64,000 nucleotides of DNA from Acanthococcus lagerstroemiae. Lineage: Eukaryota > Arthropoda > Insecta > Hemiptera > Eriococcidae. The position numbers were made by a program, and so were the translations under genes. How positions within the stretch are numbered: position 1 is the stretch's first letter; every line of letters begins with the position of its first letter. The notes beneath the pieces are model-generated. The model was not told where the DNA came from. It did not search any database and saw nothing but the letters and a program-made list of their open reading frames with translations. Below are positions 100 through 55,087 of the stretch, piece by piece. The stretch spans positions 57,281,211 to 57,345,210 of the forward strand of contig CM063113.1 of the NCBI GenBank assembly GCA_031841125.1, in the 5' to 3' direction.

Positions 100-1277
100 A
101 ATAAGTTGTCCTTTGCTGGGCAAAGGCTTCGCTCAACCGTGCCCATTCTCACCGGTGCCATGCTATTCGGTGATACAAGTTGTGTCCCAGAAATTTTGAG
201 AAATCGTGTCTCCATCTTTGCCTCGGCTTACCCTGTTTACGAATTTTCCACAGTAGCCAAACCATGGATTTTTTGTCCTCCTATCGCTACTAATTCTTGC
301 CATGTGCCCCCCTCCCCACATTACCACTTTTCCCTCTGGATTGCACGAATAAAATTTTGACTGTGTTTTAGTTTTCTTTTGATCCATCGGATGTTTATCT
401 AGTCTCCACTTTTCACATTTACAATTTCTCTTTCTAAATCGTTCTGGTGGGTTTCTATTTTCCTTTCATCTTTTTTCGATAGGGTTCATACCTGGTACCC
501 ATACAATAAGGCCGGAAGGGTGCAACTGTTTGACTTTTCTGCATATTTTGTAAATTTCCTTTCAAGATATACTTCAACCACTAAAAGTTTTTCCATGAAA
601 AATAGCAACTCTTCTTTCCACGTCCCTACTACACGAGCCATCCAGGGAAACACTTTGGTCTGGGTCGATGAACTCTGGAACAGCCTTTATTCGTTTACCT
701 TCCAAATTTAAATTTTGTTTTTCTTTTATTTGATAATAATATGTAACATCGGCTTTTCCGGAATAATCATTACGCCTGCTTCCTTTCCAGCCAAACTTAA
801 TTCATCAATAATTTCTTAGAAATATTCTGGGTTTTCCGGGATCAGCACTATATCATCCGGAAAACGGAGATTACTCAATTTTTCATTATTTATACATAAT
901 TTTTTGTTTTCCCACTTCATTTTTCAAAAGATTTCTTCCAAAGGTATGTTAAACACCTGATAGCGGGTCTCCCTGCTTCACTCCCTTCTCAATTTGGGAA
1001 AAATTCCAGCTTTGTCAGCGACTATTCGTGTTAGTAAGTTGGTATACATGTCTTTTACCAATGTTATCAGTTTTCCTAGAATACCTTCTTTCTCAAGTGC
1101 CCTTAAGATAAAGTTATGTTATACTATATCAAAAGCCTTTGTATAATCTATGAATAATAGGTGTAGGTACTTCGTTTCTGTATTCTCTGCATTTTTCAAT
1201 GATCTACCATAACGTATGAAATATGGTCAATCGTTGAGAAACCTTTTCTAGATCCTGTTTGTTCCTTTAACAGATCA
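100..1277 (-). pseudogene. RTE/BovB-type LINE ORF2 relic (RT and C-terminus)
   Basis: A decayed non-LTR retrotransposon polyprotein read on the minus strand. From high to low coordinate it shows an RT segment like KGFSTIDHI (about 1215-1260), a KGVKQGDPLS-like segment in broken form (about 950-990), and the polymerase box as FPDDIVLI (about 835-880). There the usual FADD has become FPDD, keeping both aspartates. A LPALLYG-like thumb segment follows (about 500-540), and then a C-terminal stretch with a GHMAR motif near 300. Known members of this family copy their RNA by target-primed reverse transcription. Frameshifts and stops interrupt every block, and the endonuclease end is absent, so the copy is dead. 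The order of blocks matches the RTE-type LINEs at 20.7-24.6 kb. The clade assignment is by motif memory, not alignment. Confidence 0.75.
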
Positions 1278-1294
1278 TGGCTTCAAATGTTTAT

Positions 1295-1814
1295 AATTTA
1301 GTGTGTCGCGGCAAAAAGGGCACATATCGACTTCAGATTCGGAATCTATGGACTTTTTATGGTCTGAAACAATTTACCCCACCTTCCCAACTCGGTTTGT
1401 TATCAACAGAGATGCTTGAGAATGATGTGAAAAAAAACATGGAAAAAACGGTCGTGTCATAGTTATTGTTAGTCGTGCTCCTTTTCGAGTTGTGCACCGC
1501 GTTTTTGTGCTATTATTGAGTCAAAAATAGAATTAGGTATCTGATTAATGATTTACCGAAAATGGGAAAAAAGTCGCTACAAAAAGGGCACATAACTCAC
1601 CAAATACAAACAGGAAAATATAAATGAAGGAGGCATTGTTTCATTACAACGTCATGATTTTTCAGAAGGTGAAGTGTGAAGTTTCGAATCAAAGCAACAA
1701 TAAGTATTTTACGCCAATATAGTGGTAACACTGAATGTACCCAACTTCAAAGCTGTTTTTCTGAAAACGTCGTTTCGTTGCATGTGCCCTTTTTGCTGCG
1801 ACACACTCAATTTA
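1295..1814. mobile_element. Non-autonomous TIR element, ~520 bp
   Basis: The ends are inverted repeats of about 30 bp. The left one contains AGTGTGTCGCGGCAAAAAGG and runs on into GCACAT (1295-1330). The right one is its near-complement, with a one-base change (GCGGC/GCAGC), at 1781-1814. A third partial copy (GTCGCTACAAAAAGGGCACA) lies inside at 1573-1592 in the left-arm orientation. TA dinucleotides lie at both outer edges, but exact termini and target duplication are ambiguous. The short ORFs within resemble no transposase. The superfamily is not assigned. Confidence 0.6.
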
Positions 1815-1829
1815 TAGTTACAATTTTGA

Positions 1830-2139
1830 GAAAATATTTGACAGAACGATGGTTAAACGCACTGGCCTATAATTAGTAATTCTACGTTTATTACCTTTTT
1901 TTATAATGTAGGATTACGTCGGACTTCTTTCATTGGTCAGGAATTTGACTCCATTCCAGTATCAAGTTGAACGGAATTGTCAATGTTCTCACTATATTGT
2001 ATCCCCTCCAAATTTTCTCTGTTCATTCTTGATTGATCTGTGCCTAGGGCTTTCTTCTTTCTTCAAATTTCTTACTACTCATAAAACTTCATTTTCCATA
2101 AAATGCGGTACTGTCTCGAGTCTAACATACGTATTGGTA
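1830..2139. other. No feature seen
   Basis: A+T-rich sequence between the TIR element and the degenerate repeat tract. A 94-aa open frame here has no recognisable domain or coding bias. I see no structure worth annotating. Confidence 0.4.
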
Positions 2140-2525
2140 CATTTTAAACTTCGTTATAACTCTACTAAAATTCGGTCGGACTTATTCAGATTCATATATA
2201 TGCTATTCAGATTATGATTAAACTCATTTAAGCTTCCCTATGACCTTGAAACTGGACAGGACTAATCAGCCTCTTTTCTACAACTTATTCAGACGCGTTC
2301 AAAATTCATTCTCACTATTCTTACTCGTGTCTTTGTTAAGACTCATCAGGATCTTTTAATTCTGACTCTGTTAAGATTAGTTTTTAGACTTATTTCAACT
2401 CCTCAGTCACATTCAGATTCAGCTACGACTCATTCGAATTCTTTTTGTGCTCGTAGAGACTCGCCAAATCAAACTCATTCGGACGGTTTTCAAGCTCATT
2501 CTGATTTACTACAAATCATTCACAC
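2140..2525. repeat. Degenerate short-period repeat tract
   Basis: Words such as gactcattc, ttattcag, ttaagactcat and gattcagatt recur every ten to thirty bases with no fixed register, as in an old decayed satellite. It resembles the reverse complement of the tract at 39.84-40.76 kb, where gagtcttgac/ttaacagag-type words dominate. No coding content. Confidence 0.5.
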
Positions 2526-4900
2526 AAAACCCTAATACCATCGCGCTCAAGTTTTTCGATTTGAAACCTGAAATCTGCTGAGTGAGCGAAGTTGATTTCT
2601 ATATAAGCAAAAAATAAAGGTCCTCGTACATTTAAATTTTCCGAGCAGTTACCTAAACATGCCGAGTTTGTCGACTGCGAATATAGCCTGGGATATGGCA
2701 CCCCTGCATCATCCCGCCAGTCACGAGACCCACGCATGCAGACTTATTATTGGTCAATTCCGAAAACTAAAGAGGGTATGAGACTTCAAAGTTCGAAGAA
2801 CAGTGAATTTTTCATCACGAACCCGATAGTAAGTTTTTATTTTGTAAATCTTGAAATACGATAATAGATAGTACTCGTACATTGAAAATGCTTAGCACAA
2901 AAACTTACGTCATTATTAATGTCCTATTCGCATTCTTGAAAGAGCCACGGCAGTCTGAAAATTCGAATCATAAAATTCATACAAGAACTCTTTCGCCGGA
3001 TAAATTTGGACTTTGATAGCCTCTTCAATACGTTAATATTTTACACTTTTGATAAGATTTTGTAGAACTTCTAAGACGTAAGTTTCGAAATTAAACTCTT
3101 TTTATGACGATTTTTTGCAGCATCTTTTGAACACTAGCCGTGGGCTGTACTTTAAAATGCAACGGAAGCTATCTGTGTACATCTTCAGTATTGAAGGGGC
3201 AACCAAAATCCAAATAAATTGATTCAAGAGTTGGCGAGACACAAGGGGAAAATGCTAACATTTTTGTCACTCATTTCGCGCGCAAATGTATACAGCACAA
3301 TTTTGTTCCTTCCATCCGTCATACGCGTACGTAGTTTTCAAATTTTCTAAGAAGGCTTTCGGTACATTTGGTGGAGAAGAGGCTAAGTCCCCAAAGTGCC
3401 TCCCTTTAACACTCCTAGCTAAAATGTTTCTTTAAATTTTATGATTCGCATTTTCAAACTCGCGCAAAATATTCAATAACGAAAATAGGTAAAGCATTTT
3501 TAATGTACTACCCACTGTCACCCTTCCAAAAGAAATAATCACCGTTAAATTGCGGACACTACTATGGAAAAAAGGTCAGCGAGCCATAAAAATCAAATAA
3601 CTGAATAAGTTACATGAGATGCTTTTCTACCTTAATAGCTGTAAAATATAAGCACGTCTTATATTTTTGTGAAGTTCGGTAACTTTTCCATAATAACGAT
3701 CAATTCATACAGAAAAATTCTGAGTTTTCATTTTTGAAAAGCCAAGAAGCCCCATCAATTTGAAGAATCTGCTATTGATATCTATCAGAATTGAAAAATT
3801 AAAATTTGTGATTTTCCATGACCTGAAATTTTTATTCTCATGTCTCCAGAAAACAACTGCGGCAACATTTCATAAGCTTTTCTTGTTTTTATAAATCTTG
3901 TATCAGATCACTTCCACGACTTTTCATCCATACATTCTCTGCATAATGCATTATTTCGTAAGTTTTCGAATTTGAATTGTAGACCCTCTCGTTTTGTCCG
4001 CACGAGCAGATATTTTAGATACATTATTATTATTCATTACTACCATGACCTCTTCTGAAAAAACATGATTTTACCATGACTTTCATGACTTCCATGACCT
4101 GTAAACACTGTATAACATTCTTAGTACTAGTTCATCAAACGAGAAGCCCCCCTGTGCGCACTCTCTCTTTTTAAGCACTGATATTACAGATTTCAAAAAC
4201 TGTGAAGCAGTCGTCATGATTCCATTTATGTGAACGTCCAGCATGAGTAGAATGTAATGCTAATCCATTTGCATAACTGCTGACTTCTTTAAAATACTAC
4301 TCAAAAACTACTCAAAATTACTCAATTTGAATAGTTGCTTCGTTCACGAGATATATAAGCAATAAAAATTTTATAAAAACCAAAACACTGAGTATTATGC
4401 TCTTGACTATATTCATAGGACACCCTCAGCTACAAGACTCCGTTCTTGAAATACAAACAAAATGGGAACCAAAAATGATTCTAGCTCAATTTCTGACTTA
4501 AATTTCCCTCGAATCTAAATTCCATCGATGGTATAGTTCATCAGAAATTCTTATACACGATGTAAATACTTTGAAAATATCAAATTTCAGGTATCTAGAG
4601 ACTCAGCGTAGACAAATTCTTTATGAGAGTGGAGGCGGTAAGGGGTCAAACTGTACAAAAATATACGGAACTGACCGAATTTTGTCAACTTTGTACTTAA
4701 ATTTCAATCGACAAGCAAAAAGAAGAAAATACTGCCGACTAATTCCGATAAAACTGCAAAGTTGGGCCAAGAAATTTCCCCCTCTAATAGTTTTGACCCT
4801 AAAAACAGGACTACTAGTAATATTCACTTTCAAAAATAATAGTGTAAGAATGCCTTCGCTCACTTTGAGTGTCAAGTTTGGCTTAGCCTAAATTACAAAA
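2526..4900. other. A+T-rich intergenic DNA, no gene seen
   Basis: About 2.4 kb with only short random open frames, the longest about 106 codons near 4571-4891 on the plus strand and an overlapping one on the minus strand. Neither shows a known motif. A T-run of about 12 lies near 4914. No TIR, LINE motif or tRNA-like box was noticed. Confidence 0.45.
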
Positions 4901-12729: not shown

Positions 12730-13315
12730 ACAGTCACCAGAACGATCTGGAAAACTCCTTTTCTGGGATGGCTTTCAGAGCCCAGGTCACATTCCTTTGA
12801 ATCGCCACAACACCTTCGAAACGCTCTCGCTGCATCGCCATTTTTAAATTAGGAAATAAATAAAAAAATCTAACCGAGCCAGATCTGGTGAGTAGGGTGG
12901 ATAGTGAATCGCGGTGACTGACTTCTGAGCCAAAAATTGAGTGACGAGTGTCGAGGAATGGGCTGGCGCATAGTCTTGTGTCTCTTGCAAAAGGAAAAAA
13001 AAATCGCCGGTGCGGTGCAATTCCAGTCTCACGCGTCGAATCCACTTCAAAAGTCGTCCGATGACACCTTTGTAAGATGCTGCGTTTACTATTTGGCCTG
13101 GAGGCACAAATTTAGTGTCGATAACCCGGGAGAATCGAAAAAAGGAAGTGGAAGGGCGCTCCTCTCGCAGGTCATTTTCCAGTGAGCGCATACCACTGGA
13201 AAACCTTGCCTCGGTTTTAACAATCATCCTCGTACGCGGTTTCTGAAAATTCGAATGTTTCCGAACCACTTTTTCCAACTTTGAAACAAATTTTGTGTGC
13301 GCACGTATGCTCCAT
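12730..13315 (-). pseudogene. Mariner transposase relic lacking the central catalytic part
   Basis: The minus-strand start is the ATG at 13315, giving MEHTCAHKICFKVGKSGSET, a typical mariner N-terminus in length and pattern. A frameshift follows, and then text ending in RPSTS (about 13150). That joins almost directly to FVPPGQIVNAASYKG (about 13060-13100), which in relatives lies some 130 residues further on. The helix-turn-helix region is therefore present but the first catalytic aspartate is deleted. The second (D-Y-APAH, about 12950) and third (YSPDLARLDFF, about 12885) acidic motifs remain. The tail includes ERFEGV and EFSRSFW (12734-12810). Not functional. Confidence 0.85.
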
Positions 13316-25930: not shown

Positions 25931-26241
25931 CCATCCGGTATCTGGATTCCGTGATTAGCGCTTATGACAATGTTATGGATTATAATAAAGTCACTTCAGT
26001 AGGTATAAAAGGCCGATACTGGGCCACACAACGGACTATGCTAAGCGCCATCTGACGTCACGACGCAACGAGTTCGCGTGGACAGTTCGGTACTAGGTAA
26101 TTAAGGGACTATGTTTAATGTATTTCGGATGGAATTTGAAGCGCGTTGCTTGCGAATTTAAAGGCGGGAAGCATTAAGTGGGAGATATTTTTGTGGTATA
26201 TTTTTAATTGAATATTTAAAATTTGATTGATTAACCTACCT

Positions 26242-26300
26242 GAGACAGGAGAGTCCCTCGTTAGATGCGATAGCGTCAACGATGGACCTCTCTATGTCTC
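26242..26300. repeat. Hairpin module A1
   Basis: GAGACA...TGTCTC, then GAGAGTCC pairing with GGACCTCTC, then TCGTTAGATGC and GCGTCAACGA around a four-base apex. Further copies are at 27062-27119 and 27194-27240, and an inverted one in the right arm near 29309-29367. Confidence 0.8.
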
Positions 26301-26433
26301 CCAATTAAATTTTGATCACTTTCGACCTATCAATCCTGAATTTGTATCTTTTATCCGATTTATTCTATCATATAAGGTATTGGATTGGAGGTATTAATTA
26401 ATTAATTTAGTCGTTTACCTAGCCAATCAAGCT

Positions 26434-26489
26434 GAGGACAGCGGTTCGATACTAGACGCGCTAGCGTCTATTATCGAAGCCTCTGTCCC
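26434..26489. repeat. Hairpin module B
   Basis: GAGGACAG and CTCTGTCC form the base, TTCGATA and ATCGAA the middle, and AGACGC-GCTA-GCGTCT the apex. A mirror copy lies in the right arm near 29120-29175. Confidence 0.8.
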
Positions 26490-26499
26490 TCGCAATAAA

Positions 26500-26560
26500 G
26501 AGAGGAGATTCGTCGATCTTTGAAGACGAAGGTCTTCTAAGATCGACGAGTCTAGCTCTC
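26500..26560. repeat. Hairpin module C
   Basis: CGTCGATCTT pairs with AAGATCGACG, and AAGAC pairs with GTCTT around a GAAG apex, extended outward by GAGAG/CTCTC. Mirror copy in the right arm near 29049-29109. Confidence 0.82.
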
Positions 26561-27061
26561 GCTAAAATGCAATTAGATATCAAAAATGAGGAAAATATGA
26601 AATAATATTTCGAAAATACGCGTCGAGATTCGAATAATCGAATTGGCGAGCCAGTTTCACGTTCCAGGCTATGAGGAACGGGCATTTCGCTTATTTCGTC
26701 TCAAGTCATTAGCAAACAGCGATGACCACCGGAGAAAAAATCTCGCCATTGTGTGGGTATGCCAAACGGTAAACAATGCTTTTGTAACTCGAGAATCCTT
26801 TGTCCAGACTCTAGACAATTTTGCAGGTTGGAAAAATATCGGCGGTGGTGGTGAGGGTTGTGCGACTTGCTATCCTCTAACGGGATCGTCTAACAGTTGA
26901 CAATCCTTTTGCAAACTCGAGATTCCTGCGTTGGTGTCCAATCTAAAGTGGGGGAAGCATTAAGTGGGAGATATTTTCGTTGTATATTTTGAACTGAATA
27001 TTTAAAATTTCGCGCGTGTTGATGTTTGTATGATGTTAACGGGGTAGGTGATTAAGGAGGT

Positions 27062-27119
27062 TGACAAGAGAGTCCCTCGTTAGACGCGGCAGCGTCAACG
27101 ATGGGCCTCTCAGCGTCTC
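27062..27119. repeat. Hairpin module A2 (core)
   Basis: Same pattern as A1: gagagtccctcgttagacgc, four-base apex, gcgtcaacgatgggcctctc. Situated just inside the left arm, so it is a copy additional to the arm pair. Confidence 0.78.
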
Positions 27120-27193
27120 CCAATTAAATTTAGAACAGTATCAACCTATCAATCCTGAATTAATTTTCGAATTTGATAGTCATCTACCAACCC

Positions 27194-27240
27194 GAGACAA
27201 GAGAGTCCCTCGATAGACGCTATGGACCTCTCAGTGTCTC
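27194..27240. repeat. Hairpin module A3 (core, shortened)
   Basis: gagacaagagagtccctcga, then tagacgctatggacctctca, then gtgtctc. The second apical GCGTC strand is deleted relative to A1 and A2, shortening the stem. Confidence 0.7.
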
Positions 27241-27739
27241 GCAATTAAATTTGAGTATAACCAATCATTATTATTATTATTAATTTTGCAAATCTCCGAA
27301 TCAAAGAATATCATATACATGGACATGTATGCTATTTTCACTCGATGCAGTCGACGGACGAGACAATTTCACATTTGTACCGTTAAAACCTGCGTTAGAT
27401 TCGACAAACTACCCCATCATGGACATGCATGCTATTTTCACACGAAGCAGTCAACAGGCGAAACATATCTAGACTTTTTTCGCAAAAAGTAGACTCGACC
27501 TGTATCAATTAGCGAGCGTGACACTTGACGCTTTGAGTGTACGGCTCCAAGCCCAGGGCAAATAGTATCAATCAACTTCTAATGTGCATATTGTAATCCC
27601 TTTTTTTCTCGCGGATACAGGCGTCAGCCTTATTTTATCCAACCAGCCTATGATTAGAAGATTTTAACGAAAAAGTGGTGACATTAAAGCTTTAGACAAT
27701 GCATTTTGGATTCAAATCCGAGATTAGGATGTTTTAATG

Positions 27740-28310
27740 ATAAAGTGGGAGATACCTACATGAAATATCTATATTTTAACAGAATTACCTTTGAGTAGAG
27801 GGGATATCGAACAACAGATGAATGTGGTTAGCATTTACCCAAATTACTCTCGAGTATAAGGAGATAGCCTTCTGCCTGGGAGTTGGAAGTTTTGATGGAG
27901 AAAGCGTTAGCTTCTTCATCTATACTCCCCATCTCGCCCTAATTAATATTAATTAATTAAATGAGAGAGAGAGATAACTACTTGTATTTTATCCGAATTA
28001 CTTTTGAGTAGGAGATTATCAAATGCCAGAGGAAATGATAGGTACCTGAATTACTTTTGAGTTTGGGTTATCAAATATCAGATGAATGCGGTGGACATTG
28101 AGTACATGGAGATATCCTTTAGCCCGGGAGATGAGAGTTTTAGCGGAGAAAGCGTCAGCTCCATTGCCTATACCTACTCTCCATCTCACCCTAATTAATA
28201 TTAATTAAATGAGAGATATTTACATGAAATATTCGTATTTTATCCAAATTACTCTCGAGTATAAGGAGTTAGCCCTCAACCTGGGAGATGAGTCCCAATT
28301 AAGCTATTGA
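27740..28310 (+). repeat. Core tandem repeats with hairpins, ~2.5 units
   Basis: Blocks recur in order: an attacttttgagta / attactctcgagtataagga word, ggagata(g/t)cc, a gggag(t/a)tg... hairpin with gagaaagcgt(t/c)agct at its apex (27877-27930 and 28126-28188), and ccctaattaatattaattaa followed by atgagaga. A third, truncated unit ends near 28295. Period is roughly 250-270 bp. No protein-coding signal. Confidence 0.7.
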
Positions 28311-28581
28311 GTCTAATGATTATTAAAAAATGAAATAATTTTCGCAAAATCATCGAATTTTTGAATCAGAGTCATGTTTTATATTCAATTTGAAAAATCC
28401 TCTATAATTACCACGGAATAACGGGTTTTCATCAAATGTCTGTAAATCCGCATGACTATAATGCTATGTGGACATCGTTGGTATGCAGCAAAAATACCGT
28501 TTGATTTAGGCTTTCATTCCCCTTGTCAGTGACTGTTTTACATAAAATATGAAATACCCGCTAGTCTTCCAAGATACTGAT

Positions 28582-29611
28582 AAACATCAACACGCGCGAA
28601 ATTTTAAATATTCAGTTCAAAATATACAACGAAAATATCTCCCACTTAATGCTTCCCCCACTTTAAATTGGACACCAACGCAGGAATCTCGAGTTTGCAA
28701 AAGGATTGTCAACTGTTAGACGATCCCGTTAGAGGATAGCAAGTCGCACAACCCTCACCACCACCGCCGATATTTTTCCAACCTGCAAAATTGTCTAGAG
28801 TCTGGACAAAGGATTCTCGAGTTACAAAAGCATTGTTTACCGTTTGGCATACCCACACAATGGCGAGATTTTTTCTCCGGTGGTCATCGCTGTTTGCTAA
28901 TGACTTGAGACGAAATAAGCGAAATGCCCGTTCCTCATAGCCTGGAACGTGAAACTGGCTCGCCAATTCGATTATTCGAATCTCGACGCGTATTTTCGAA
29001 ATATTATTTCATATTTTCCTCATTTTTGATATCTAATTGCATTTTAGCGAGAGCTAGACTCGTCGATCTTAGAAGACCTTCGTCTTCAAAGATCGACGAA
29101 TCTCCTCTCTTTATTGCGAGGGACAGAAGCTTCGATAATAGACGCTAGCGCGTCTAGTATCAAACCGCTGTCCTCAGCTTGATTGGCTAGGTAAACGACT
29201 AAATTAATTAATTAATACCTCCAATCCAATACCTTATATGATAGAATAAATCGGAAAAAAGATACAAATTCAGGATTGATAGGTCGAAAGTGATCAAAAT
29301 TTAATTGGGAGACATAGAGAGGTCCATCGTTGACGCTATCGCATCTAACGAGGGACTCTCCTGTCTCAGGTAGGTTAATCAATCAAATTTTAAATATTCA
29401 ATTAAAAATATACCACAAAAATATCTCCCACTTAATGCTTCCCGCCTTTAAATTCGCAAGCAACGCGCTTCAAATTCCATCCGAAATACATTAAACATAG
29501 TCCCTTAATTACCTATTACCGAACTGTCCACGCGAACTCGTTGCGTCGTGACGTCAGATGGCGCTTAGCATAGTCCGTTGTGTGGCCCAGTATCGGCCTT
29601 TTATACCTACT
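28582..29611 (-). repeat. Right inverted arm, 1,030 bp
   Basis: Inverse copy of the left arm, ending at the ACT terminus before CACTTC. Inner boundary aaacatcaacacgcgcgaaa corresponds to tttcgcgcgtgttgatgttt on the left. Confidence 0.92.
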
Positions 29612-29619
29612 CACTTCTA

Positions 29620-38155: not shown

Positions 38156-39343
38156 CAGTTTGGCTTTCGAGCCAAGCATGCTACATTCGAGCAGGTACAT
38201 AGGGTATATACCACAGCCAGGAATGCACTAGAAGCCAGAAAATTCTGCCCGGCAGTCTTCCTGGAAAACGGGCGTTCGACAGGGTATGGATCCAAGGATT
38301 ACTCCATAAGAGTGGCGACTACCTGCCAGAAGCCCACATTCACCTGCTTGAATCCTACCTCCAAAACAGGAAATTCCAGGTCTACTATGGCGAAGAATCC
38401 TCCTGCATCAAACCCATAGCAGCTGGGGTACCGCAGGGCAGTGTCCTAGGCCCCCTCCTCTACGTATTATTCACGGCTGACATCCCCAAAACAGGAAACA
38501 CAACCATGGCTAAATTCGCGGACGACACAGCAATTATGACACCAAACCCGGATTTCAACACAGCAACTTCACACCTTCAAGGAGCGGTGAACGCTGTCTC
38601 TGACTGGGCTAGGAATTGGAGAACCAAATTAATTCAAACAAGTCAACCAAAGTGGACTTTGCACTCCGACCAAATCCCCCAGCCCCTATCTATATAGATG
38701 GGGAAAGGGTTCCTACCTGCCTTCACACCTGGTACCTAGGAATTCACCTAGACAAAAGACTCACCTGGAACCCACACATCTTGAAGAAGAGAGAGGAAAT
38801 CAAAATACGCCTCCATTCCATGTATTGGATACTGAGAGCCAGGAACCAGCTCACACTTAGCAACAAGAGGCTACTCTACATAACAATCCTGAAACCTGCA
38901 TGGAGCTACGGAGCCCCATCTGGGGCTGCGCGGCAGACTCCAACATAGCAACACTCCAGCGCATCCAGAACCTGGTTCTGCGGAAGATAACAGGTGCACC
39001 GTGGTATATCACGAACAGCAGCCTTCACCAGGACCTCAATATACCAACTGTGAAGGAGGAAATACGAAAACTAGCCCAATCCTACAACTGCCGACTCCAT
39101 AAGCACTCCAACACCCTAGCGATCAACCTACTGGAAACCTCACCAGTAATTCGCCTCCGCCGGAAGCTGCCCACTGACATTTAGTATTTAATCACAGGTT
39201 AACTTAGTACTACCCCCAGAGCCCTGCGAATGCGCAGGCACCTGGTATCATGTCAATATACTATATACATAAAAGTACCCCCCCCCCCCCGAATGTAAAT
39301 GCCAATAGGCAGTCCAAGAAATAAATAAAATTATTTAAAAAAA
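38156..39343 (+). mobile_element. Jockey-type LINE, 5'-truncated, 12-bp TSD
   Basis: The direct repeat AATTGGTGGAGT occurs at 38144-38155 and 39344-39355. The insertion starts inside RT domain 3 (QFGFRAKHAT-like, read across frames). It ends with a C-run (39278-39290), ataaataaaattattt and an A tail. Length is 1,188 bp. 5' truncation, A tail and target duplication together are the classic mark of target-primed reverse transcription. Confidence 0.9.
38160..39184 (+). pseudogene. Jockey-type RT C-terminal half
   Basis: Blocks: AFDRVWIQGLLHKSG (about 38274-38318), AAGVPQGSVLGPLLYVLF (about 38420-38473) and AKFADDTAIM (about 38510-38540). Then YLGIHLDKRLTW (about 38733-38768), NKRLLYITILKPAWSYG (about 38860-38910) and SPIWGCAADSN. 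The final part ends at 39184 (RLRRKLPTDI). At least two frameshifts (near 38630 and 38920) break the frame. The catalytic FADD is intact. Its closest relative in the window is the LINE at 48.1-49.7 kb, with the same motif order and the same ending. Confidence 0.85.
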
Positions 39344-48016: not shown

Positions 48017-48157
48017 ACTTGTTAACTATTTTTCTTAAATAATTATTGAAAACCTTCTTTTTTTTTGGCGAAACGTATCACGTTTTGATGTTTTATTACG
48101 GAAGAAAGCAGAAAAAGAAGAGTATTTTAAAGGGAAACGTGAGCCATCTTTAGAGAT

Positions 48158-49078
48158 TTGTCAGCAAACCCTCTACTTGATTTTGGTAAGATCAAGCCTG
48201 CATCACCTATGGAAGTGGCCACACTTATTGACAACTTGAAACTTCGTAAAGCTCCTAGTCCGGACAAAGTGCTACCTATCATGCTGCAGGAACTTCCTCG
48301 CAAAGGAATAGTGTACATCACATATCTGATCAACGCTGCGATTCGACTTCGACACGTCCCTCTGGCATGGAAACAGGCCAAAGTTATTGTTATTCTCAAA
48401 CCTGACAAACCTCCTGAACTCCCCAGCAGTTATCGTCCCATATCATTACTTCCCATTGTTTCTAAAATCTTCGAGAAAATTATCCGTAACCGTCTTTTGA
48501 CAATAATTCGCAATCAGAACCTACTCCCACCGTTTCAGTTTGGATTCAGAGAAAAACACGCGACAGTCGAACAAATCCATCGAGTCACACATACCGTCTC
48601 ACAAGCATTGGAAGATAAAAACTATGCACCGGCAGTATTTCTTGACGTCAGCAGCGCCTTCGACAAGGTATGGCACCGTGGACTAATCCACAAACTACTA
48701 CCATACTTCCCATCCTGCCTCTGCAGGTTGATCAAATCATACCTAAGTGACCGTCAATTCAAAGTTCACATCGGAACCGAATCTTCTCGCTGGACCAGCA
48801 TTGCTGCAGGTGTACCACAAGGCAGTGTGTTGGGTCCTATATTGTATCTTCTCTACACCATGGACATCCCACAAACTGAGGGTGTCATCACTGTGCTCTT
48901 TGCAGACGACACGGGTCTTATTGCTCGCAACATATCCTATGATACGGCGGTATCTTCTCTTCAGACAGCAGTTGATCGAGTTTGCCACTGGGTAAGTAGC
49001 TGGAAAATATTGCTCAACAAGAAGAAATCAGTCCGCGTCGACTTCACACTATCATTGACGGTGAGCCAGTTCCAGTAG
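48158..49078 (+). CDS. Jockey-type reverse transcriptase (partial, 306 codons)
   Basis: The longest open frame in the window. Blocks in order: LKLRKAPSPDKV (about residues 27-38, usually KAPGPD), SYRPISLLPIVSKIFEKII (about 91-109), QFGFREKHATVEQIHRV (about 128-144) and AVFLDVSSAFDKVWHRGL (about 159-176). Then AAGVPQGSVLGPILYLLY (about 217-234), with FADDTGL at about 249-255. All RT catalytic aspartates are present (D in FLDVSSAFD and the FADD pair). It copies element RNA at a nicked target in the known family. The upstream part is missing and the frame shifts at about 49065 into the next segment. The ATG is only the first one in an already truncated copy, not a true start. Confidence 0.85.
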   Translation: MSANPLLDFGKIKPASPMEVATLIDNLKLRKAPSPDKVLPIMLQELPRKGIVYITYLINAAIRLRHVPLAWKQAKVIVILKPDKPPELPSSYRPISLLPIVSKIFEKIIRNRLLTIIRNQNLLPPFQFGFREKHATVEQIHRVTHTVSQALEDKNYAPAVFLDVSSAFDKVWHRGLIHKLLPYFPSCLCRLIKSYLSDRQFKVHIGTESSRWTSIAAGVPQGSVLGPILYLLYTMDIPQTEGVITVLFADDTGLIARNISYDTAVSSLQTAVDRVCHWVSSWKILLNKKKSVRVDFTLSLTVSQFQ

Positions 49079-50525: not shown

Positions 50526-51028
50526 CATAGGAAAATTCGACTTCTCAAACAAAATGTAAATATAACCGGTAGTAAATAATAAAATCGTCTGACCGGATCC
50601 GTAGCGGTATTCATTTCCATTTCGGAAAGAGAAACACAACAAAACAAGCACAGAGTAACGTCAGTAAACCAAGAACAATAACATGCAGCATGGAGCACAA
50701 TAACAGAATGGGAGGTTTCGGTGGCTCGCCACCGATCCCAAATTCGAGAACTGGACTTCCCCCACTGGGTTCCGTCTTGTACGTACATGGTCACACGTGG
50801 ACCAATGGAGATATATAGTAGTACGTGGACTAATGAGGGGGCCGAAATCCACTACAGGGGGCGAGCCGTACACTCAAATGCGTCCAAATTATCGTCACAG
50901 GCGGGGGCTATCCTAACAGGTAGGGGCAAGCCAAGCTTGAGCAGGGCGTCGAAAGGTTAATTAATCAAGGTTGATTAATTATAATCAATTAATACAGTTG
51001 AATCATATTAGAGTTGTATTAAATTATT
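50526..51028. other. No feature seen
   Basis: Includes a small attaatcaa/ttgattaat foldback near 50958-50980. No gene. Confidence 0.4.
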
Positions 51029-51037
51029 ATTATTACT

Positions 51038-52449
51038 CGGCCCAATATTATTTAATGTCTATATAAACGAACTGCTTCAGCTGCCATTGAAGGCGAAACC
51101 AATAGCGTATGCAGACGATACGTCTCTAATTTACAGCCCGCGAAGCTGGAAAGAAATAGCAAATGAATTTGAACACGACATGAATATATTGGTGCCATGG
51201 CTGAGGGAGAACCAACTTCACCTGAATGTGGGAAAGTGCTGCCGGGTCGTGTACGCATATAAGGCTCCTCAGTGGTCCCAAGACGTGAAATTGATGATAA
51301 ACGGTAGGGAAATTGAAGGAAAGAATGTGGTGAAATACTTGGGACTGCATCTAGACTCTGGACTGACATGGAAGGAACAGTCGATGTACATGCAGTCCAG
51401 ATTGAGAAAACTGAACTACCTCTTCTGGCACTTAAAAAATTTTTTTTCGGAAAAACACCTAAAGAAGCTTTACTGTCCACTGTATGAATCTGTATGCATA
51501 CGGATTGATACACTGGGGCGCATCACATCACATGAAGCCGATTAGAGTGTTACAAAATTACGTCTGTAGGAGCATTCTGGGCCTCGAAAAAAGAACTTCT
51601 GAACCCGAAATTTACGAAAAAATGAAAGTCACGACAGTGGAAAATTTGTATCGCCAACGAGTAGCAATATTTGTGTTTAAAAATAAATTGGAATATGCTG
51701 TGCACGGCTCGGTGGCGGTTTCCAGGCATGGTGGTGGTCAGGTTGCCCAATACCCGGGGTGGCGGAAACACCACTCAAGACTCCAGCTAAAATACAGGGG
51801 TTTTGAAGTATTTAATGGGCTGCCAATCCAGCTGAGAAATGAGCCTCGGTTATCCGCGTTCAAGAAGTCTCTAAAAGAGCTAAAAGAGCTATAGCGTGGT
51901 TTTCGCTTGGCTTCTTTGCGGGCTGACGGGCTGGCTTATGGATTGCATTGCGTGGGGGTGGCGCGTTGCAAGTTGAAATATTTCAGCTTGTGGCGTGTTG
52001 CCTTTTGCGTGGTGTGGTTTGGGGGCTGGCTTGTTGGCTTGTGGCTTGTGGCTTGTGGGGAGCCGGGTGAAAACCACGCTTATAGAAGGTATCGAACCTC
52101 AGTTGTCTTTGTCGTTGGAGTTTTCAATGTCGTGTGTTCCGTTTGTGCCCAAATTGTGTATGTTTATTGTGTTTGTGTGCAGTGTTATTTTGTCCATGTG
52201 AATTAAGTGTTTTGTTATTTATGTTAGTACTGCAGGTTTTGCCATTGTTATTGCGCTTTTGATTTTGATCTACCTTTTATTTATTTATTTCTATTACGTT
52301 TTGTTTATTTATTTATCTTAAGGGGTAATAATAATAGTAATCCCCCCCACTCGCCCCCCTATACAATGGGGCACAGGGGGCGTATCAAATGTTCTAAATA
52401 TAAAAATGTAAAAATTATTATTATTATTATTGAATAAATTGAAATTGAA
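51038..52449 (+). mobile_element. CR1/L2-like LINE 3' end with 9-bp TSD
   Basis: The direct repeat ATTATTACT occurs at 51029-51037 and 52450-52458. The insertion begins within the RT core and ends in tgaataaattgaaattgaa, a short-repeat tail with no poly-A, as known for CR1/L2-group LINEs. Length is 1,412 bp, including about 540 bp of 3' UTR after the stop at 51892-51894. Confidence 0.83.
51060..51894 (+). pseudogene. CR1/L2-like RT C-terminal part
   Basis: Frame 51087-51545 carries AYADDTSLIY (about 51105-51135), WLRENQLHLNVGKC (about 51198-51240), VKYLGLHLDSGLTW (about 51330-51370) and FFSEKHLKKLYCPLYESV. A single frameshift near 51500 leads to frame 51484-51894 with AYGLIHWGA, LQNYVCRSILGL and the ending FNGLPIQLRNEPRLSAFKKS. 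The YADD box is intact. Everything upstream of RT block 5 is missing. Confidence 0.82.
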
Positions 52450-54945: not shown

Positions 54946-55087
54946 AGATACGAGTGAAGACATTACGCCATTTTGCCTCACACTACGCCCGTAGATGCCG
55001 AATTGACTATGTGGTACACTCCGCATAGTCGGATTTGGTATCCACGGGCACGGTGTGAGCCAAAATGGCGTGTCTTCACTTGTATTA
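54946..55087. mobile_element. Hairpin MITE, ~142 bp
   Basis: The arms 54946-55011 and 55023-55087 are near-complementary. GAGTGAAGAC pairs with GTCTTCACTTG, ACGCCATTTTG with CAAAATGGCGT, and ACTATG with CATAGT at the apex. About 80-85% of positions pair. Possible outer ends are ATAGATAC/GTATTATG. No TSD resolved. Confidence 0.7.

Follow-up and report, generated by a model that had tools for sequence, protein, structure and literature searches.

A 64,000-nucleotide stretch of the Acanthococcus lagerstroemiae genome (contig CM063113.1; G000:C8:57281211-57345210 of a 658-Mb assembly), which we call the window and by whose positions we number features, contains a 3,614-bp element that is very probably a young non-autonomous Polinton/Maverick (probability about 0.93). 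We classify it so because its ends and 6-bp target-site duplications match and because inverted pairs of 18.0–18.5 kb in the same genome encode integrase, polymerase or capsid. This identity had already been proposed from the letters of the window, in what we call the sequence-only reading, and the ends, the 6-bp duplications and the coding partners in the same genome all support it. The element structures described below are known from assembled sequence.

Structure of the element

The element consists of a left arm (25998–27027, plus strand), which starts AGTAGGTATAAAAGG, a spacer of 1,554 bp (27028–28581, plus strand) and a right arm (28582–29611, minus strand), which terminates in CCTACT. 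Each inverted arm is 1,030 nt long and the two align without gaps at 1025/1030 positions, in line with the earlier description of a 3.6-kb element with near-identical arms of about 1 kb. The flanks read ...AAAGT CACTTC / AGTAGG ... CCTACT / CACTTC TACC, that is, termini of the form AGT...ACT between perfect copies of CACTTC (25992–25997 and 29612–29617, not counted in the 3,614 bp), so both the 6-bp duplication and the ends had been read correctly. Elsewhere in the window equal 6-mers at the identical spacing occur at 21 of 52,374 positions. A 7-bp reading of the direct repeat (TCACTTC) would put the termini off symmetry by one base, and we take its length as 6 bp since all 13 other pairs described below show 6 bp with symmetrical ends. 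Both termini carry an inward-facing TATAAAAGG 6 bp from the end of the element; by sequence resemblance, TATAAAAGGC at 26004–26013 (plus strand) is TATA-box-like, and its inward-facing counterpart in the right arm lies at 29596–29605 (minus strand).

The sequence-only reading had allowed that the arms might be a misassembly of one arm. The evidence points the opposite way: they are not one arm assembled twice, because they differ at five positions (96, 356, 450, 484 and 946 of the arm). An assembly artefact, be it a palindromic read or a doubled arm, would suit such near-identical arms as well as the giant palindromes among the kin of the element, but it is opposed by these differences, by perfect duplications between unlike flanks and by the many loci involved, and we consider it very improbable.

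That no transposition protein is encoded inside the element is confirmed, as no Pfam family scored over its cut-off in the 10 frames scanned and the one match below cut-off had an E value of 0.24. The 85-codon frame pointed out earlier is indeed present in both arms (26643–26900, plus strand; 28709–28966, minus strand), but it is no evidence of a gene and we judge it to be due to chance: 126 of 500 dinucleotide shuffles contained a stop-free frame at least as long as the longest one in the arm (99 codons), and a search over 5.8 billion proteins gave no candidate homologue of the 85-codon frame.

Copies with the same ends elsewhere in the genome

We queried the genome with arm positions 1–603, scored 40 of 247 candidates, so that the counts given here are lower bounds, and paired the matches that face each other. 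The termini of 13 pairs besides that of the window were inspected, and in every one of them (13/13) the ends are AGT...ACT and the 6-bp duplication is perfect, which is what the sequence-only reading had suggested looking for. Two of these pairs, C1:30.30M and C1:30.35M, have identical flanks and represent one insertion, leaving 13 independent insertions with that of the window included; in the bases read, C1:30303982-30313845 and C1:30350947-30361368 share flanks and duplication, as expected of a host segmental duplication containing the element. Twelve additional places had a single arm; C8:14.5M and C3:70.07M were later paired and ten were left single. Two single arms, C5:359496-359895 and C5:410463-410862, have opposite orientation and the same flank over the 30 bases read, and thus indicate an inverted host duplication. 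Altogether a perfect 6-bp duplication is found in 14 of the 15 pairs read, window included, with none next to both ends in the remaining one, C3:70.07M. The count leaves out C8:14.5M, whose left 438 bp is lost, and 8 spacer-bearing foldbacks, for which a loose pattern located the ends unreliably.

These duplications also bear on whether the element could be a foldback element of the P superfamily, of the Galileo type. According to passages of PMC3573991, Galileo has long, internally repetitive arms of variable length and has lost its transposase in gene-free copies, the longest arms sitting in non-autonomous ones, which is all reminiscent of the element in the window. However, Galileo makes 7-bp duplications, whereas of the 15 pairs here 14 have 6-bp ones and one has none, and the coding partners here bear Polinton genes; the duplications and the partners together refute this explanation, to which we attach next to no weight. 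Duplications of about 6 bp are likewise made by IS3EU/GingerRoot and by Dada elements, but the former end in TA..TA or TG..CA (passages of PMC10045372) rather than AGT...ACT, and the latter lack terminal inverted repeats and target small RNA genes (passages of PMC3706591), neither of which holds for the element in the window.

Coding Polintons in the same genome

Judged by their domains, the 18.0–18.5-kb coding pairs are Polintons/Mavericks. C3:31.5M (18,338 bp; inverted repeats of 791 bp, 99.9% identical) has an rve integrase (E 4e-14), DNA_pol_B_2 (1e-17), a double-jelly-roll (DJR) capsid protein (9.5e-92) and a phospholipase-A2-like domain (7e-11), with a Chromo match beside the integrase slightly under the cut-off of that family. 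In C6:43.2M (18,266 bp; repeats of 1,156 bp, 100%) and C4:55.7M (17,967 bp; repeats of 981/988 bp, 98.9%) the integrase is accompanied by an over-cut-off Chromo domain, and both have the capsid, while C9:21.2M (18,525 bp; repeats of 1,273 bp, 99.9%) has capsid and phospholipase-A2-like domains. The integrase was found wherever the stretch that would carry it was scanned, in three of three coding elements (C3:31.5M, C6:43.2M and C4:55.7M; this stretch of C9:21.2M fell outside the scan), and DNA_pol_B_2 is present in C9:21.2M, C6:43.2M and C3:30.0M in addition to C3:31.5M. Relatives of 15–20 kb encoding polymerase and integrase, as anticipated by the sequence-only reading, therefore do exist, and they also encode the DJR capsid.

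The ends of C3:31.5M share positions 1–345 of the window arm at 86% identity, and C6:43.2M, C4:55.7M and C9:21.2M share its first 53–63 bp together with positions 343–946 (the latter at 92–93.5%), so the arm seems to be pieced together from two types of end. Against 13 pieces from elements with coding frames, 2641 of the 3,614 bp of the window element align. The expectation of a full-length partner with the same ends holds in so far as the 18.0–18.5-kb coding elements have related ends, but no coding partner seen carries the whole arm.

According to passages of PMC8097293, intact vertebrate Polintons are 12.7–24.6 kb long with repeats of 46–1447 bp and have the terminal motif (AGT)2. The element in the window agrees with Polintons (including the adintovirus-like ones) in its 6-bp duplication, its long terminal inverted repeats, its AGT...ACT ends, which have 5 of the 6 letters of (AGT)2, and in sharing its genome with partners that encode integrase, type-B polymerase and DJR capsid; it differs from Polintons in being 3.6 kb long and gene-free. 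It lacks what would make it an autonomous Polinton (polymerase, integrase and capsid genes of its own and a length of 10–25 kb) and we class it only as a non-autonomous derivative, because it is 3,614 bp long and has no over-cut-off Pfam match among its 10 frames. As such a derivative should, it combines absence of genes with ends and a duplication length common to the coding Polintons of the same genome.

Four points weigh against this assignment. The small pair C3:70.07M (C3:70070315-70072438; L095 7316–9439), which is 2,124 bp long and gene-poor (longest stop-free frame not above 161 codons) and whose arms measure 575/590 bp (94.4%), has AGT...ACT ends and no duplication adjoining both of them: GTACTA stands directly after the right end and is repeated at a distance of 5 bases from the left end. 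Among the best 40 candidates scored per search (out of 247 for the arm and 360 for the spacer), none was identified as another copy of 3.6 kb. No coding partner was seen to carry the whole window arm. Finally, mobilisation in trans by the coding relatives is something that we infer from the shared ends.

Long palindromic relatives

The sequence-only reading was right that coding Polintons with related ends are present, but the nearest long kin of the element are others, namely gene-poor, long-armed foldback or palindromic elements. Four of these, C2:0.12M (17,421 bp), C7:33.8M (17,376 bp), C9:46.4M (17,894 bp) and C3:41.05M (17,958 bp), are near-perfect palindromes in the parts read, which for C3:41.05M and C2:0.12M means full length and for C7:33.8M and C9:46.4M the central 6 kb together with the ends. 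The outer 3.9 kb of C3:41.05M have 2 mismatches and 56 gap positions; further inward, stretches of 1088 and 2912 bp match at 100% and are followed by 993 aligned positions that differ by gaps only, up to about 119 unpaired bases in the centre. The arms of C2:0.12M (8407 and 8369 bp) differ by 5 mismatches and by gaps at 44 positions, and its last stretch round the middle is 91% palindromic. The inner arms of C7:33.8M and C9:46.4M have no mismatches over 2593 and 2242 bp, respectively, around 104 unpaired bases, and the palindrome centres deviate from the middle of the element by no more than 4 and 75 bp. The flanks of the palindromes are unlike on the two sides and their duplications are perfect, which speaks against fold-backs of reads or assembly. 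Shorter relatives measure 11,463, 10,422, 10,396, 9,864 and 2,124 bp.

In the parts read of the four palindromes, stop-free frames do not exceed 182 codons and none of the 4 frames scanned had a Pfam match. Their interiors are 95–99.8% alike, and two palindrome centres (L097 and L075) gave no match to the 13 pieces from coding-frame elements. By contrast, a segment of C2:0.12M, positions 619–3277, matches C9:21.2M, a coding element, at 94.8%. Both arms of C3:30.0M contain the polymerase, at 3972 and 3970 bp from the ends of the element, and both arms of C1:30.35M contain a long frame.

Two side observations concern long-armed elements of this genome. Between the arms of one long-armed relative (C2:33466500-33476400; L131 5687–7111, minus strand) lies a 475-codon Endonuclease_7 frame, and the DNA bearing it is 65–68% alike to pieces of coding elements. 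Many DNA_pol_B_2 matches form inverted, near-equal pairs about 10–12 kb apart (for example C6:10098023-10111788, C2:47036486-47050247, C8:51528327-51541863 and C5:45083366-45096402), as if the genome held further Polinton families with polymerase-bearing inverted arms.

Origin of the element

The spacer search, in which 40 of 360 candidates were scored, gave at least 40 long matches elsewhere in the genome, 30 of the 40 forming 15 facing pairs that span 13.1–15.5 kb, outer edges included, in 14 cases and 21.9 kb in one. On this evidence many elements have in common a longer end, of which the spacer represents the inner part. C8:14.5M, whose inverted arms are about 5.26 kb long, matches positions 1–2584 of the window element at 98.4%, and for this reason we describe the element as a 2,584-bp end joined bluntly to the inverse of positions 1–1030; at the junction (28581/28582) no base is common to both donors.

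This anatomy is compatible with two origins. In the first, which involves no snap-back, a parent with long inverted ends simply lost its middle by internal deletion, either in the chromosome or while its DNA was replicating. Parents with ends of about 4–9 kb exist, the join is blunt and a single deletion yields 2584 + 1030, and we give this origin even odds; it leaves unexplained, however, how long-armed and palindromic parents arose from coding elements with repeats of 0.8–1.3 kb. In the second, to which we assign somewhat less than even odds, DNA synthesis starting at one end doubled back along its own strand, and the resulting snap-back (copy-back) genome integrated. The element has the geometry of such a genome, one end repeated inverted around a loop, and its relatives span the range from asymmetric forms to near-perfect palindromes. 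There is a precedent in the defective snap-back genomes of adeno-associated virus (AAV), which are described in symmetric and asymmetric forms and combine one viral end with a loop and an inverted copy of that end, although the authors themselves propose end joining (passages of PMC8235507). The element in the window differs from these in being integrated in its host and belonging to a family whose coding members have a type-B polymerase. The window copy by itself fails to separate snap-back copying from a deletion in a long-armed parent. A further point against the analogy is that the mode of replication of AAV is not that of Polinton-like elements.

We propose that the non-autonomous Polinton in the window was derived from a long-armed relative by internal deletion or by snap-back copying in the course of protein-primed replication. 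It would retain the terminal sequences recognised by the polymerase and integrase of a coding relative and so would have been copied and integrated in trans, the 6-bp staggered cut probably being made by the integrase of the coding partner. Encapsidation of such satellites is possible. The palindromes (17.4–18.0 kb) are about as long as the coding elements (18.0–18.5 kb), sizes that only suggest packaging of satellites, and since the interiors of the palindromes are related by descent their common length cannot count as independent support for size selection. A scenario that goes further, and that we consider rather unlikely, is that the palindromic satellites keep roughly the length of coding elements because they were born as snap-back genomes and then replicated, sized and packaged by the coding Polinton machinery before integrating, the window element being a small asymmetric member.

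Hairpins and other features of the window

Each arm contains three hairpins of about 60 nt, which in the left arm (plus strand) lie at 26242–26300 (25/25 pairs, z -7.1), 26430–26495 (z -7.8) and 26497–26565 (z -6.7). Hairpins 3, 2 and 1 of the right arm (minus strand) lie at 29044–29112 (placed by arm coordinates), 29114–29179 and 29309–29367; hairpin 2 is weakened there by its two differences (-32.9 versus -37.1 kcal/mol in the left arm). An eroded copy of hairpin 1 with 21/25 pairs stands in the spacer at 27061–27119 (plus strand), where five hairpin segments fold less well (z -5.0, -3.5, -3.3, -1.9 and 0.0). The tip motif GAYGCNNNNGCGTC fits two of the three arm hairpin tips and one spacer tip; its 8 matches in the window, against 0.04 expected, are all inside the element, and it recurs in the ends of all four coding elements examined (L090, L148, L150 and L152). 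The arm hairpins may be cis-acting sites.

Selection on the hairpins as structures is unsupported: pairs are kept at 96–97% across copies with no compensatory change (13 and 23 distinct rows), and in 10 arms hairpin 1 is barely more conserved (549/590, 93.1%) than the rest of the outer arm (2513/2750, 91.4%). Of the 16 strongest hairpins in the window 4 lie inside the element, and two outside it are stronger, at 54981–55060 and 51941–52020 (-46.5 and -43.6 kcal/mol per 80 nt). No Rfam family was found.

Elsewhere in the window there are three reverse-transcriptase fragments (38203–38694, 48143–49075 and 51012–51542), which we take to be of the non-LTR type. Among the 120 of 1290 relatives listed for a reverse transcriptase of the window, the named ones come from insects and a springtail. 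A weak DDE_3 match at 12844–13314 (minus strand; E 0.007, below cut-off) is presumably a mariner relic.

Relation to described elements and implications

Searches with the exact ends and the hairpins gave no real match in viral_contigs (27 16-mer matches, 0/27 with further similarity or a paired end), none in genome_contigs and none in phages and plasmids. Small gene-free derivatives are routine among cut-and-paste transposons. Polintons themselves are known, but non-autonomous ones are little described in the literature searched, where the phrases non-autonomous Polinton and non-autonomous Maverick were not found and only 'polinton-derived' was met. Some of the publications matched by a search on palindromes, satellites or defective forms of Polintons/Mavericks were consulted through titles, abstracts and passages, and these contained no report of such elements.

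One genome thus holds together a non-autonomous Polinton, coding partners and palindromic satellites of virus length. The set bears on the cis-acting ends of Polintons, on how defective Polintons arise and on whether animal Polintons package DNA. If the satellites were indeed packaged snap-back genomes, the length of these non-coding elements would be genomic evidence for animal Polinton particles with a size limit.

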